Origin: an uncultured Bacilli bacterium
GTDB lineage: Bacteria; Bacillota_I; Bacilli_A; RF39; UBA660
Assembly (NCBI GenBank): GCA_947598325.1
Contig: CANQFD010000009.1
Span: 1-32,368, forward strand
Direction of reading: 5' to 3'
DNA length: 32,368 nt
The notes under the pieces were generated by a model that did not search any database, was not told where the DNA came from, and saw only the letters and a list, made by a program, of their open reading frames with translations. Of the stretch, positions 1 to 32,368 are shown piece after piece (within the stretch, counting starts at the first letter, position 1; every line of letters begins with the position of its first letter). Both the position numbers and the translations under genes were made by a program.

Positions 1-3
1 AAA

Positions 4-77
4 ATATTAATTTTGAATTTTAAAAATTTCATAAGAAAACCTCTAGTTTAAAAACTAGGGGTTTGTCAACACTCTGA
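4..77. repeat. Left copy of 74-bp terminal inverted repeat
   Basis: This stretch is identical, base for base by eye, to the reverse complement of 32295-32368 at the other end of the window. It contains an imperfect palindrome around positions 40-61 (CCTCTAGTTT, two bases, AAACTAGGGG; one G-T mismatch) and ends in GTCAACACTCTGA. The identity stops exactly at 77, one base before the inserted IS element. A dispersed repeat, for example an IS end or a MITE-like element, is the likely explanation; no open reading frame is visible in it. Confidence 0.9.
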
Positions 78-78: not shown

Positions 79-134
79 GGGAGTGTAAAAATTTCTGTGT
101 AAAATCTATCTATCCATGATAGTTTAAGTTTTAT

Positions 135-158
135 AGGAATCTTAGAGGATTCCTTTTT
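135..158 (+). terminator. Inward-facing hairpin with T-run inside the IS
   Basis: AGGAATC (135-141) and GATTCCT (148-154) form a 7-bp stem with a six-base loop, followed on the plus strand by TTTTCT. Read on the plus strand this is an intrinsic terminator just inside the left IS end. It would stop outside transcription from running antisense into the transposase gene. A second weak inverted repeat (CTATGAT/ATCATAG, 159-165 and 176-182) follows it. Confidence 0.55.
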
Positions 159-203
159 CTATGATTTAATCATATATCATAGAATATTAAATTGTCAATT
201 GAA

Positions 204-1412
204 TTAAATCCTCCCTTCAAACATAATGGATAATTCTCCAAGGATTAAATCCCAATTTCTATATCTTCCATTCCATTTTTTGGTAATGTTTAATGTGGCT
301 AAATACAAACATTTCATTAGTGCTTCATCTGATGGAAATACTGATTTTGTCTTTGTATATTTGCGATAAGAACGATTTAAACTTTCAATTGTATTGGTTG
401 TATACATTATCTTTCTCACTGGTTCAGAATAGTTAAAAAACGAACATATGGCATCCCAATTTTCTTCCCAGGATTTTAAAGCAGTTGGATATTTAGTCTT
501 CCATTTTTCTTTTATTTTTTGTAATTGTTCATATCCTGCCTTTTCATTTTTGGCTGTATAAATCGTTTTTAAATCTGCACAGAATGGTTTTAATTCTTTA
601 TAAGAAACAAATCTTACTGAATTTCTTATCATGTGAACAATACACCTTTGTTGTACAGTTTTTGGAAATGCCGTCCCAATTGCTTCTTTCATTCCCGTAA
701 GTCCATCAGAACATATAATCAAAATATCTTTTACTCCTCTTTGTTTTAAATCATTTAATACACTTAACCAAAACTTTGCTGATTCATTTTCTCCTATCCA
801 AATTCCTAATACATCTTTTTCCCCATATTCATTTATCCCTAATACAATATAGGCTGCTTTTTTTACTACACTTGTTTCATCTCTTACACTAAAATGTACG
901 GCATCTATAAATACGATTGGATAGATACTTTCTAATGGTCTATCTTGCCATTCTTTAATTCTAGGTAATATCTGATCTGTTATATTACTGACCATCGTAC
1001 TTGATACTTCTATTCCATATAAATCTTGTATTTGTTCATTAATTTCTCTTGTTGATAATCCTCTTCCATACAAGGATATTATTTTATCTTCTATTCCTGA
1101 TACATCTCGTTTATTTTTAGGTACTATTTTCGGTTCAAATTCCCCATTTCTATCCCGTGGTGTTTCAAACTCAAATTCTCCAAACTCACTTTTTAATGTT
1201 TTTTTAGTTGTTCCATTTCGGTAGTTGCTTTTTTCACTCTTATTATCATATTTCTTATATCCCATACTACTTTCAAATTCTGCATTCATCATTTCCTGTA
1301 GAGAATCCTTAAATAAATCTTTTATGGCACTTGATAAGTCCTGCGCACTTTCTATTTGATAATTCTCTTGTATTATTTCTAATATCTTTTTTCCTTTACT
1401 TTTTTCTTCCAT
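204..1412 (-). CDS. IS256-family (mutator-type) transposase
   Basis: The 402-residue protein is full length for the family. It carries a DDE catalytic triad in the expected spacing: D170 in IVFIDAVHFSV, D236 in IICSDGLTGM and E343 in TTNTIESLNR. The C/H motif QQRCIVHMIRNS (residues 255-264) between the second D and the E is typical of mutator-type transposases. The N-terminal part (about 1-100) is charged and would bind the terminal repeats. The start at 1412 has a GGAGAG ribosome binding site about 9 bases upstream. The frame is unbroken, so the enzyme is probably active. It would cut and paste the element with 8-9 bp target duplications. Family assignment is confident; the exact IS name cannot be given without a database search. 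Confidence 0.95.
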   Translation of the reverse strand: MEEKSKGKKILEIIQENYQIESAQDLSSAIKDLFKDSLQEMMNAEFESSMGYKKYDNKSEKSNYRNGTTKKTLKSEFGEFEFETPRDRNGEFEPKIVPKNKRDVSGIEDKIISLYGRGLSTREINEQIQDLYGIEVSSTMVSNITDQILPRIKEWQDRPLESIYPIVFIDAVHFSVRDETSVVKKAAYIVLGINEYGEKDVLGIWIGENESAKFWLSVLNDLKQRGVKDILIICSDGLTGMKEAIGTAFPKTVQQRCIVHMIRNSVRFVSYKELKPFCADLKTIYTAKNEKAGYEQLQKIKEKWKTKYPTALKSWEENWDAICSFFNYSEPVRKIMYTTNTIESLNRSYRKYTKTKSVFPSDEALMKCLYLATLNITKKWNGRYRNWDLILGELSIMFEGRI

Positions 1413-1485
1413 TTTAAAATCTCTCCATTTCTTTTATTTTATCATGGAAAGATTTTTTATTTTACACAGATTTTTTTACAGACTC

Positions 1486-1518: not shown

Positions 1519-1959
1519 TTAATATTTATTTTTTAACATTTTATCTGTTTCTCTTTTAATATCTCTTTGTTTAATAGTTTCTTTTTTATCATATGTATGT
1601 TTACCTTTAGCTACTGCAAGCTGTATTTTTGCCTTACCACGTATAAAATATAATTTAACTGGAACTAATGTTAATCCTTTTATAGATATTTTAGCATTAA
1701 TTTTATTTATTTCGTTCTTATGAAGTAATAACTTTCTAGTTCTTGTTTCATCATGATTAAATATATTTCCTTCTTTATATTCTGAAATATACATATTAAG
1801 AAGATATACTTCACCATTTTTTACAATTGCATAGCTATCTTTTAGATTGGCATTACCTTTTCTAATAGATTTTATTTCTGTTCCTGTTAGAACTATTCCT
1901 GCTTCATATTTATCTAATATTTCATAATCATATCTTGCTTTTCTGTTTAATATTTCCAT
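1519..1959 (-). CDS. smpB: SsrA-binding protein SmpB
   Basis: SmpB binds the tRNA-like part of tmRNA and brings it to stalled ribosomes for trans-translation. The 146-residue protein matches the family length (about 150). It starts NRKARYDYEILDKYEAGIVL and has the typical TGTEIKSIRKG and NHDETRTRKLLLHKNEI segments, with a lysine-rich C-terminal tail (TIKQRDIKRETDKMLKN) that sits in the mRNA channel. I place the start at 1959 because AAGGTGA lies 5 bases upstream; an eight-residue N-terminal extension from a TTG at 1983 is unlikely. The gene overlaps the end of rnr by 32 bases, and the rnr-smpB pair is conserved across Bacillota. RNase R degrades the mRNA freed by tmRNA, so the pair is one functional unit. 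Confidence 0.96.
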   Translation of the reverse strand: MEILNRKARYDYEILDKYEAGIVLTGTEIKSIRKGNANLKDSYAIVKNGEVYLLNMYISEYKEGNIFNHDETRTRKLLLHKNEINKINAKISIKGLTLVPVKLYFIRGKAKIQLAVAKGKHTYDKKETIKQRDIKRETDKMLKNKY

Positions 1960-4075
1960 TTTTATCACCTTGTTTTTTTTCAACTAAATTAAAATCAATT
2001 GTGCTATTTTCTTTTGATGCATTAGTTACAACAACTCTTACCTTTTGTCCAAGTTTATACATTTTGCCTTTTTTCTCACCTTTTAAAGTTTTTGTTACAT
2101 CATCAAAATTATAATAATCACCCTTCATTTCGGAAATGTGTACCAAGCCTTCAATCATATTATCTAACTGAATAAACATACCAAAATTCATAATAGACGA
2201 TATAATTCCATCATATTCTTCACCTATATGATTTTCCATATATTCTGCCATTTTCATAGATTCTACATCTCGTTCACAGTCTATTGATTCTCTTTCTTTT
2301 TCTGATGCATGTTCACAAAGTGCTGGTAAATTTTCATTCCAATAAGATATTAATCTTGATAATTCTTTTTCATTAGGTCTATTAAATATATATTTTCTAA
2401 GTAAGTTATGAACTGTTGTATCTGGGAATCTTCTAATAGGTGAAGTAAAATGTGTATAACATTTAGAAGCAAGTCCATAATGCCCTACATTTTCTGGTTT
2501 ATATTCAGCTTTTTTCATACATCTAAGAAGTAGTGTTGAAAGTATTTCAAATTCATCCTTATCTCTAAGCTGATCAAGTATTTTTTTCATGGATTTAGGA
2601 TATATAAAATTTCTATCTCCTTTAATTTGGTAACCAAGTAAACTTATTGAATTTAAAAATTCTTTTACTTTTTCTTCATCTGGTACTTCATGAATACGAT
2701 ATACAAAAGGGAATTCTAAATAGAAAATATGCTGTGCAACTGTTTCATTTGCCGCAATCATAAAATCCTCAATTAAATTTTCTCCCTTTCCTCTTTCTCT
2801 TACAACTACATCATATGGTTTACAATTTTCATCAACTAATATTTTTGCTTCATCTACATCAAAGTCCAAGTAACCCCTTGATAGTTTTTCCTTTCTCAAT
2901 ATTTCAGCAAGTTCTTCCATCAATTTTAAATCAGAAACATATTCTTCATAACCTACTGGGATTTCTTCATTATTAAGAATTTTATTAACTTTTTTGTATG
3001 TCATTTGGATTCTTGATTTTATTACACTCTCAAATATATCGTGTGAAATAATTTTACCATCTTTTGTTATTTCCATTACACATGATATAGCAAGTCTATC
3101 TTCATTTGGATTTAATGAACATATCCCATTAGAGAGTTTATGGGGAAGCATGGGAATAACTCTATCAACTAAATATACGCTAGTTCCTCTATCATATGCT
3201 TCTTTATAAAGTTCTGTACCTTCTTTTACATAATATGATACATCTGCTATATGAACACCAAGAATATAGTTTTCTCCATTTTTCTTAATTGAAATAGCAT
3301 CGTCTATATCCTTTGTATCATCACCATCTATTGTAAATATAGTTTCTCCTCTTAAATCTCTCCTACCTACTATTTCGTTTTCTGATACTTCATTTGGAAG
3401 CGCATCTACTTCTTTCATAACAGCTTCACTAAATACATCATTGATATTATGATCATAAACTATAGATAATATATCAACTCCAGGATCGTTTTTGTGTCCA
3501 ATTATTTTTACTACTTCTGCTAAATATTTATATTTACCAAGTTCTTTTATTATGCTAACTTGAATTTTATGACCAGGAACCAAATCATCAAGATTTTTAT
3601 TATCTAGTATAATTTCCATATTTAATTTTTTATCGTCAGGTATAAAATGTGGATTCCCATCAAATATATCATATAATCCTACAATTAAATTATTTTCTTT
3701 TTTTAGTATTTTTACAATTCTACCTTCTGTTTTCTTGCCACTACCTTTTATTTCTTCTGCAACAACAATGTCATTATTAAGAGCTCCATTCATATTTCTT
3801 TTATCAATATAAATATCATCTTCACCATCTAAAATCACAAATCCAAAGCCACCTTTACTAACAGAAAGTCTTCCTTTCTTTAAATGACTTTTCTCAAACA
3901 TAATATATTTACCTTTATTAGATTTATATACTATAAAATCATTTTCAAGTTCACTCAATGCTTGTAATATATTTTTTAGATCATCTACTGATTTTTTTCC
4001 TAATTTTTCGCTTATTTCAATAGGGGATAATGCATTATCTTCTATTTTTAATATATCAATTATTTCTTCTTTCAT
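1928..4075 (-). CDS. rnr: Ribonuclease R
   Basis: RNase R is a processive 3'-5' exoribonuclease that degrades structured RNA and, with tmRNA, non-stop mRNAs. The 715-residue protein has the full domain order: N-terminal winged helix (about 1-60), cold-shock domains (about 65-200, GRLSVSKGGFGFV), RNB catalytic domain (about 235-570) and a C-terminal S1 domain (about 625-700, YDGIISSIMNFGMFIQL). The catalytic aspartates lie in the FTIDGDDTKDIDDAIS motif at residues 247-262. The start at 4075 follows AAGGAGG at good spacing. A short lysine-rich tail follows S1, and its last codons overlap smpB by 32 bases. secG lies upstream, separated by an intrinsic terminator. Confidence 0.97.
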   Translation of the reverse strand: MKEEIIDILKIEDNALSPIEISEKLGKKSVDDLKNILQALSELENDFIVYKSNKGKYIMFEKSHLKKGRLSVSKGGFGFVILDGEDDIYIDKRNMNGALNNDIVVAEEIKGSGKKTEGRIVKILKKENNLIVGLYDIFDGNPHFIPDDKKLNMEIILDNKNLDDLVPGHKIQVSIIKELGKYKYLAEVVKIIGHKNDPGVDILSIVYDHNINDVFSEAVMKEVDALPNEVSENEIVGRRDLRGETIFTIDGDDTKDIDDAISIKKNGENYILGVHIADVSYYVKEGTELYKEAYDRGTSVYLVDRVIPMLPHKLSNGICSLNPNEDRLAISCVMEITKDGKIISHDIFESVIKSRIQMTYKKVNKILNNEEIPVGYEEYVSDLKLMEELAEILRKEKLSRGYLDFDVDEAKILVDENCKPYDVVVRERGKGENLIEDFMIAANETVAQHIFYLEFPFVYRIHEVPDEEKVKEFLNSISLLGYQIKGDRNFIYPKSMKKILDQLRDKDEFEILSTLLLRCMKKAEYKPENVGHYGLASKCYTHFTSPIRRFPDTTVHNLLRKYIFNRPNEKELSRLISYWNENLPALCEHASEKERESIDCERDVESMKMAEYMENHIGEEYDGIISSIMNFGMFIQLDNMIEGLVHISEMKGDYYNFDDVTKTLKGEKKGKMYKLGQKVRVVVTNASKENSTIDFNLVEKKQGDKNGNIKQKSKI

Positions 4076-31493: not shown

Positions 31494-32249
31494 TTATAAT
31501 TTTAAGTTAAATAGTCTTATTGCATTATTTGTAGTTAAATTTTCAATTTCTTCATATGTCAATCCAAGTTCATTGGAAATAGTTTCAACTATGTATTTTA
31601 AATTCATTGGATTATTTTGTTTCCCTCTATTTGGTTCTGGGGATAAATATGGGGAGTCTGTTTCAATTAATATATAATTCTTGTCTATATTTTTTATCAT
31701 ATTTCTTTGCTTGACATTATTTTTAAAAGTTATAGGGCCATCTATTCCTATATAAAAGCCTAGTTTTATAAACTCTTTTGCCATTTCTAAACTACCTGAA
31801 TAACAATGTATACTACCTTTCAAATTATATTGTTTCAAAATATCATATGTATCTTTAATAGAATCCCTACTATGTACTATTACTGGCAAATTATATTTTT
31901 CAGCTAAATCTAGTTGTTTTCTAAATAACTCTTTTTGTTTTTCTTTGTTATTTTTTACCCAATGATAATCTAAACCAATTTCCCCAATTGCAATTATATT
32001 TTCTTTTACTATTTGTTCTTCTAATAACTTTATATCTTCATCAGTAACTTTATCTACGACTGAATGATCATATCCTATTGATGCATATACATGATCATAT
32101 TTTTTGGACAATTGTATTATTTCTAAATTGCTTTTTTTATCTATACCATTTAATATTAATTTAATATTGTTATCTTTACATTTTTTTATTATTTGCTCTG
32201 CATTTGGTACTTCAGATTTGTATAAATGTGAATGTGTATCTATAAGCAT
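31494..32249 (-). CDS. tatD: TatD-family metal-dependent DNase/hydrolase
   Basis: TatD enzymes are TIM-barrel hydrolases with 3'-5' nuclease activity. The 251-residue protein has all metal ligands: DTHSHLY (4-10), E in IGEIGLDYHW (about 92-101), VIVHSRDS (about 125-132), SIHCYSG (about 149-155) and IETDSPYLSP (about 197-206). The start at 32249 has GGTGAT upstream. It heads the tatD-rsmA-yabG-veg series. In B. subtilis metS lies just upstream; here a palindrome and the terminal repeat follow, and the window then ends. Confidence 0.95.
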   Translation of the reverse strand: MLIDTHSHLYKSEVPNAEQIIKKCKDNNIKLILNGIDKKSNLEIIQLSKKYDHVYASIGYDHSVVDKVTDEDIKLLEEQIVKENIIAIGEIGLDYHWVKNNKEKQKELFRKQLDLAEKYNLPVIVHSRDSIKDTYDILKQYNLKGSIHCYSGSLEMAKEFIKLGFYIGIDGPITFKNNVKQRNMIKNIDKNYILIETDSPYLSPEPNRGKQNNPMNLKYIVETISNELGLTYEEIENLTTNNAIRLFNLKL

Positions 32250-32266
32250 ATATTATCACCAAAAAA

Positions 32267-32291
32267 GATTATATCATAAATTGATATAATC
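32267..32291 (-). promoter_or_regulatory. Palindrome upstream of tatD: extended -10 and/or terminator
   Basis: GATTATATCA and TGATATAATC form a perfect 10-bp inverted repeat with a five-base loop. On the minus strand the 3' arm contains the extended -10 TGATATAAT, 19 bases before the tatD start, and it is followed by TTTTTT. It can be read as the tatD promoter or as the intrinsic terminator of a gene lying outside the window. No -35 box is clear. Confidence 0.5.
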
Positions 32292-32294
32292 TTC

Positions 32295-32368
32295 TCAGAG
32301 TGTTGACAAACCCCTAGTTTTTAAACTAGAGGTTTTCTTATGAAATTTTTAAAATTCAAAATTAATAT
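32295..32368. repeat. Right copy of 74-bp terminal inverted repeat
   Basis: This is the exact reverse complement of 4-77. On the plus strand it reads TCAGAGTGTTGACAAACC, then the hairpin arms CCCCTAGTTT and AAACTAGAGG followed by TTTTCT, then AT-rich sequence to the window end. It starts four bases after the tatD-upstream palindrome. Confidence 0.9.

Follow-up and report, generated by a model that had tools for sequence, protein, structure and literature searches.

An IS1182-family insertion sequence that probably selects hairpins by shape and duplicates them whole

The stretch of DNA analysed here (the window) is the entire contig C9, of 32,368 nt, from a draft genome of 13 contigs and 942,887 nt, and both of its ends break off within copies of the same multi-copy element. 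Contig ends lying inside one multi-copy sequence are the usual mark of an unresolved mobile element. What makes the locus of interest is that each copy lies beside a hairpin, and a preliminary description had left two readings side by side, namely an element that targets terminator-like hairpins, or a repeat kept beside them as a terminator module. The question is, therefore, what the element is and how the hairpins came to adjoin it.

The element end is recognized by the pattern TCAGAGTGTTGACAAA, which is found with 0-1 mismatch at six sites of the genome, every one at a contig end. Three of them are of the left-end type (the start of C5 and the start and end of C9) and three of the right-end type, TCAGACTGTTGACAAAG (the ends of C3, C4 and C7). 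Allowing up to 3 mismatches, 0.5 matches are expected in the window and two are found, both perfect; the six further matches in the genome have 3 mismatches each and look like chance, a control with the pattern read backwards giving 3+3. The repeat itself starts with CAGAGTG, not with TCAGAGTG as first described.

At the right-hand end of the window, the element begins at 32296 (CAGAGTGTTGACAAACC...) and is present as the left end of an IS1182-family insertion sequence with the terminal repeat CAGAGTGTTGACAAA (32296-32368, minus strand), truncated by the contig end and 96% identical to an intact copy in genome G004. By analogy with that intact relative, the transposase of the right-hand copy would read toward this end, and the element's own subterminal hairpin (CCCCTAGTTTTTAAACTAGAGG, 32311-32332) is probably, as judged from its sequence, the transposase terminator. 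The 33 nt that precede the element (32263-32295, AAAAGATTATATCATAAATTGATATAATCTTCT) are a single inverted repeat with a DNA fold z-score of -6.2. The copy had been placed four bases past this palindrome; however, the bases in question, TTCT, are the outer stem arm, lying opposite AAAA with one mismatch, and the element is flush with the hairpin from 32296 onwards. Thus, that both copies adjoin a hairpin holds, whereas the gap of 2-4 nt does not, since it is the foot of the stem.

The whole 33-nt hairpin is one copy of a target-site duplication. An identical copy (33/33), oriented as expected, adjoins the right end of the element on contig C3, and joining C3 and C9 restores the order metG-hairpin-tatD, with metG across the insertion on C3 and tatD (31494-32249, minus strand; Pfam TatD_DNase, E 3.9e-75) as the host gene adjoining it on C9. 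A second contig pair, C5 and C7, has a 30-nt hairpin common to both and arranged as in C9 and C3. The duplication is invisible within the window, since the matching element ends are located on other contigs. In same-genus relatives, metG is found upstream of tatD in 6/7, the stretch examined in the seventh being without it, and a single matching hairpin was read by eye in the metG/tatD stretch of 7/7, directly before tatD in six and after metG but before an extra gene in one. Since relatives have one hairpin where two copies surround the element here, the hairpin is, on this comparison of sequences, a pre-existing host target that was duplicated on insertion and not a part of the repeat. This metG-tatD hairpin is AT-rich, includes a T-tract and is conserved in the genus; it could act as a terminator, a promoter or both. 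Its arms are TATAAT-like in the seven same-genus relatives (L208-L214).

These data bear directly on the reading of hairpin and repeat as a unit kept as a terminator module, which had been suggested by the like layout at two sites of the window. It retains next to no probability: the hairpin lies outside the repeat, hairpin sequences differ between sites, the hairpins of related copies are duplicated around a transposase-coding element, and the uninterrupted metG-tatD sites of relatives carry a single hairpin without the element.

The left-hand end of the window is complicated by a second mobile element. The copy of the IS1182-family left end found there (1-76, plus strand) is truncated by the contig start, with position 76 as its outermost base, and is followed by an IS256-family (Mutator) insertion sequence (79-1485, minus strand; transposase 204-1412, Pfam Transposase_mut, E 1.2e-116), the bounds of which are accompanied by 7-bp repeats. 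The two copies of this IS256-type target duplication, CTCTGAT, are found at 72-78, overlapping the IS1182 end, and at 1486-1492. Beyond it lies the hairpin ATAAAATGAACTTATTGAAGTTCATTTTTT (1491-1520; 30 nt with a flush score of 11), which is carried by the 3' end of the host gene smpB (1519-1983, minus strand; Pfam SmpB, E 7.8e-60). The IS256-family element thus sits exactly at the junction of the IS1182 end and its hairpin, and without it the hairpin would be flush with position 76, so that the position beside the smpB hairpin, as originally proposed after removal of the insertion sequence, stands, and the two-base gap does not. The hairpin is the target of the left-hand copy and, by prediction, the sequence duplicated by it; its core, with up to 2 mismatches allowed, occurs once in the genome. 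An IS256 transposase gene likewise lies beside an IS1182 (ISEfa7) gene on an Enterococcus faecium plasmid (L218).

Across the genome, a flush hairpin is found at all six sites with 0-1 mismatch, the left site of C9 being counted as flush only once the IS256-type insertion is discounted, and also at a degraded copy on C2. Five of the hairpins of this genome, folded as DNA strands, gave z-scores from -3.9 to -7.1, and the fold of the C4 hairpin was matched by 2/200 shuffles. A search of the assembly with the hairpin patterns of the C4 and C9-left copies, made to locate their partners, found each pattern at a single place, and the partner ends are therefore taken to lie outside the assembly. The degraded copy (C2, ~54075; L206) is a solo left end of the element adjoining a perfect 33-nt palindrome, close to a tRNA-Gly gene (anticodon TCC, L206:2097-2170).

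The nature of the element was established through its ends and its relatives, because its interior is absent from its own assembly, where a search for an IS1182 transposase gave 0 matches. In its own genome, the terminal inverted repeats are CAGAGTGTTGACAAA at one end and CAGACTGTTGACAAA at the other. Over 77 nt, the left end matches that of the intact copy of G004, a genome of the same genus, at 96% identity; this copy encodes a 475-aa protein (L021:124-1551). This transposase scores 345.5 bits against the NCBIfam IS1182 model (NF033551), above the cut-off of 270, and has Pfam matches, at the domain level, to DUF772, DDE_Tnp_1_6 and DDE_Tnp_1. On these grounds, the element is assigned to the IS1182 family of insertion sequences, with the repeat as its left end. 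The subterminal hairpin and a TTGAC motif had also suggested the IS200/IS605 family, whose members have a HUH transposase and neither terminal inverted repeats nor target duplication; the terminal inverted repeats, the duplications and the IS1182 transposase of the relative rule it out.

Whether flush hairpins are a general property of such elements was addressed in 114 loci, of which 54 came from public genome contigs and 60 were regions chosen from two genome-search listings; the latter are mostly full-length, were hand-chosen among the matches listed, and derive for the most part from an IS1182 family search of 392 genomes. A flush inverted repeat with a score of at least 6 is found at 111 of 120 distinct ends (one-ended copies included), as opposed to 2.4% of 41,616 positions taken as controls from these loci, the other nine ends falling below this score; at a score of at least 7 the figures are 96/120 and 0.95%. 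When the start is moved outward by 1, 2, 3, 5 and 8 nt, the count of 96 falls to 85, 74, 60, 38 and 1, respectively, a gradual drop that is expected because the inner portion of a stem is still a stem. These values replace those of a first, less strict version of the test, in which ends were called more loosely and stems were scored differently (96/145 versus 8.7%). The hairpin enrichment that the preliminary description had proposed to look for at the flanks of other copies is thus borne out in relatives and, with IS1182-family ends and differing hairpins at nearly every insertion examined, its suggestion that terminator-like hairpins are targeted is supported.

Both sides of the element could be compared in 54 two-ended copies, reduced to 51 distinct ones (L199, L200 and L201 were dropped as duplicates) and to 47 after removal of four false end calls (L151, L169, L170 and L171); L100 was excluded as a partial copy. 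Some of these copies are not independent, L154-L156, L184 with L186, and L080 with L081 coming each from one genome, and L191 and L192 sharing one target. A duplication of at least 12 nt flanks 37 of the 47, with a length of 16-33 nt (median 26) and without mismatch in 35. The duplicated sequences are themselves symmetric: end-to-end symmetry is at least 75% in 34/37, as compared with 0.38% of 39,900 control windows, the three below this cut being L149, L155 and L186. Furthermore, when each empty site was rebuilt and scanned blindly for its best inverted repeat, the centre of this repeat fell within 1 nt of that of the duplication in 35/37; in the two off-centre cases, L075 and L198, the duplication, too, is an inverted repeat, but one nearby scores higher. 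The true centre outscores all 24 shifted centres at 33/37 sites. The L191 (G298) and L192 (G177) elements occupy one hairpin target in opposite orientations, as the result of two insertions, an inversion or an assembly flip.

The constancy of the centre is to be contrasted with the variability of the length. That the length is set by the total length of the palindrome was considered and is not supported, no tracking being found at 35 sites (Spearman 0.15, p 0.38), and the cut is, therefore, not simply placed at the foot of the longest stem; several duplications end inside a longer palindrome. A preference for A is also apparent, the first base within the duplication being A in 92% of 74 half-sites and the sequence outside being A-rich. 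This composition is what would be expected if the transposase recognized a linear target sequence and made an ordinary staggered cut, the hairpins being incidental through the A-tract and T-tract of terminators. Ordinary staggered cuts, however, produce one fixed duplication length, whereas the duplications here span 16-33 nt with their centre fixed on the dyad, and a GC-rich hairpin is duplicated in Aminobacter, so that a linear target is improbable. Whole-hairpin duplications are found in a Bacillus pumilus plasmid as well as in Aminobacter.

The gene context of the insertions could be assessed, with simple reading-frame calls, at the 18 of the 37 sites that have at least 700 nt on both sides. 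Convergent genes flank ten of them and tandem genes the other eight; no site falls between divergent genes or interrupts a reading frame. These counts are to be compared with 5 convergent, 18 tandem and 13 divergent among 36 other gaps of the same loci (Fisher p 0.0024 for divergent and 0.0028 for convergent). This distribution fits terminators as the targets. The absence of insertions from reading frames and from between divergent genes at the 18 testable sites would also follow from random insertion, with selection sparing only the copies in terminators since no gene is broken there, but this explanation is highly improbable, selection being unable to set the junction at dyad-symmetric points or to make hairpin-shaped duplications.

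Ten of the 47 two-ended copies, classified by eye, are without a duplication of at least 12 nt. The hairpins differ between the two ends in six of them (L064, L070, L077, L094, L185 and L194), as would result from recombination between copies; L066 looks eroded, L078 retains part of the hairpin on one side, and the 5' end of L059 and L099 is without a good hairpin. Among the other elements examined, ISCfr1 and a Dinoroseobacter element have repeats of 4-6 bp only, and clear ends were not found for ISEfa7 in the two loci where they were sought (L218 and L219). Two IS1182 relatives with GTCACTGAAAAAG ends, L159 (G603) and L161 (G661), have duplications of 8-9 bp beside or inside hairpins; that of L159, the 8 bp GAATAATC, is symmetric across the hairpin loop, whereas that of L161 is not symmetric.

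How these outcomes are distributed was surveyed in a quick tree of 83 transposases, which has several long branches, possibly misplaced, so that its details are unsure. All 33 hairpin-duplication elements in it (31 of the 37 together with two plasmid elements, the other six copies being missing since they encode a short protein or one with an identical counterpart) fall inside one clade of 51 rows with a support of 98, which also holds 15 rows with the same kind of ends but no found duplication and three unresolved rows. Separate from it stands a clade of 28 rows with a support of 100, which takes in, besides 16 unresolved rows, all 12 elements that were labelled, by eye, as carrying GGGGCTGT-type ends without a clear duplication; for some of the 12, the best-ranked candidate duplications are matches of 3-6 bp or have edges that lie within the terminal repeat. 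Two elements with 8-9 bp duplications branch apart, as do two with 4-6 bp repeats. The label 'hairpin duplication' changes 15 times over the tree, since copies for which no duplication was found are scattered among the others.

The element's identity through its relatives, the flush junctions, the axis-centred duplications and the one-hairpin sites of relatives are documented at the sequence level. Very probably, the repeat forms the left terminus of an IS1182-family element whose shape-guided transposase targets hairpins, joins the element at dyad-symmetric points and causes the whole hairpin to be duplicated. The transposase would select inverted-repeat DNA by its shape, not its sequence, largely at gene ends and so mostly at terminators; it would join the two 3' ends of the element at points placed symmetrically about the dyad, one on each strand, at the 5' sides of the hairpin, and gap repair would then copy the intervening DNA, leaving the hairpin as a target-site duplication of 16-33 bp that flanks the element. 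The target may be a cruciform that has been extruded, perhaps in part, and is attacked at the four-way junction. Partial extrusion, along with the local preference for A inside the cut, would explain the duplications that end within longer palindromes.

Some of this has precedents in the family. ISCbo5, an ISBma2-like IS1182 element of clostridia, was reported to have hairpins at all insertion sites but one, which lie at gene ends and were interpreted as signals that stop transcription (Skarin et al. 2011, PMC3098183). Family and gene-end hairpin targets are thus shared with the present element; unlike it, ISCbo5 is described, in the part of the report that concerns its insertion sites, with hairpins surrounding the element and not with a dyad-centred duplication of variable length. 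In staphylococci, IS1272/TnSha1, likewise an IS1182-family element that targets inverted repeats, is inserted in hairpins, several of them confirmed terminators, the hairpin being partly lost (Furi et al. 2016, PMC4923244). IS1272 has 16-bp terminal repeats and targets inverted repeats without sequence specificity (PMC4923244, PMC5678879), although three copies have non-palindromic targets (Wan et al. 2017, PMC5678879). As described there, IS1272 deletes or replaces the stem-loop without duplication, which defines the IS1272-like subgroup, whereas the present element retains the hairpin and doubles it (33 nt and 30 nt in its own genome); IS1272 itself is absent from the transposase tree. ISCaa15 of Amoebophilus asiaticus, also of the IS1182 family, has 18-bp inverted repeats and, unlike the present element, 4-bp direct repeats, in 2/3 full-length copies, a hairpin target being unmentioned in the passages that describe it (PMC3196728).

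The closest counterpart is the model of Wan et al. (2017, PMC5678879), in which IS1272 attacks a cruciform, with loss of the stem-loop when the attack is at the 3' feet, duplication of the stem-loop when it is at the 5' feet, and duplication of the loop alone when it is at the loops. The present clade fits the second branch (pathway b), which is theoretical in the account given there and for which 37 natural copies with such an outcome are now described; unlike in pathway b, some duplications are shorter than the full palindrome, which suggests partial extrusion. The 8-bp loop duplication of L159 resembles the third of these outcomes. A fixed stagger in duplex DNA would hardly yield duplications that vary in length about a constant centre, whereas an enzyme seated on a four-way junction would yield them easily. 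A more speculative extension, the chances of which are put at somewhat under even, is that the transposase docks on the four-way junction of the extruded or partly extruded palindrome, that the duplication reports the momentary length of the arm, and that IS1182 clades differ in their exit, by duplicating the stem-loop, by deleting it (IS1272-like) or by duplicating the loop region only (L159).

Thus, hairpin targeting by IS1182 elements is already in print (ISCbo5 and IS1272) and duplication of the stem-loop was previously proposed as a pathway; what is added here is that the duplication is centred on the symmetry axis while its length varies. Within the texts on IS1182 elements examined, a dyad-centred whole-hairpin duplication of variable length was not found, although one may already have been published elsewhere. 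Earlier reports only hinted at a liking for palindromes; the coincidence of the centre of the duplication with that of the dyad, over lengths of 16-33 nt, turns this into a measurable rule, which makes a structure-guided transposition reaction of a DDE enzyme testable in vitro. From a practical point of view, hairpin duplications can be used to pair contig ends across an IS1182 element in short-read assemblies, as for C9/C3 and C5/C7. For the biology of the family, duplication of a terminator would leave both neighbouring genes with one each, and the mechanism may, therefore, offer an insertion sequence a route of low harm to its host, in which the terminator that is struck would be doubled and not broken.
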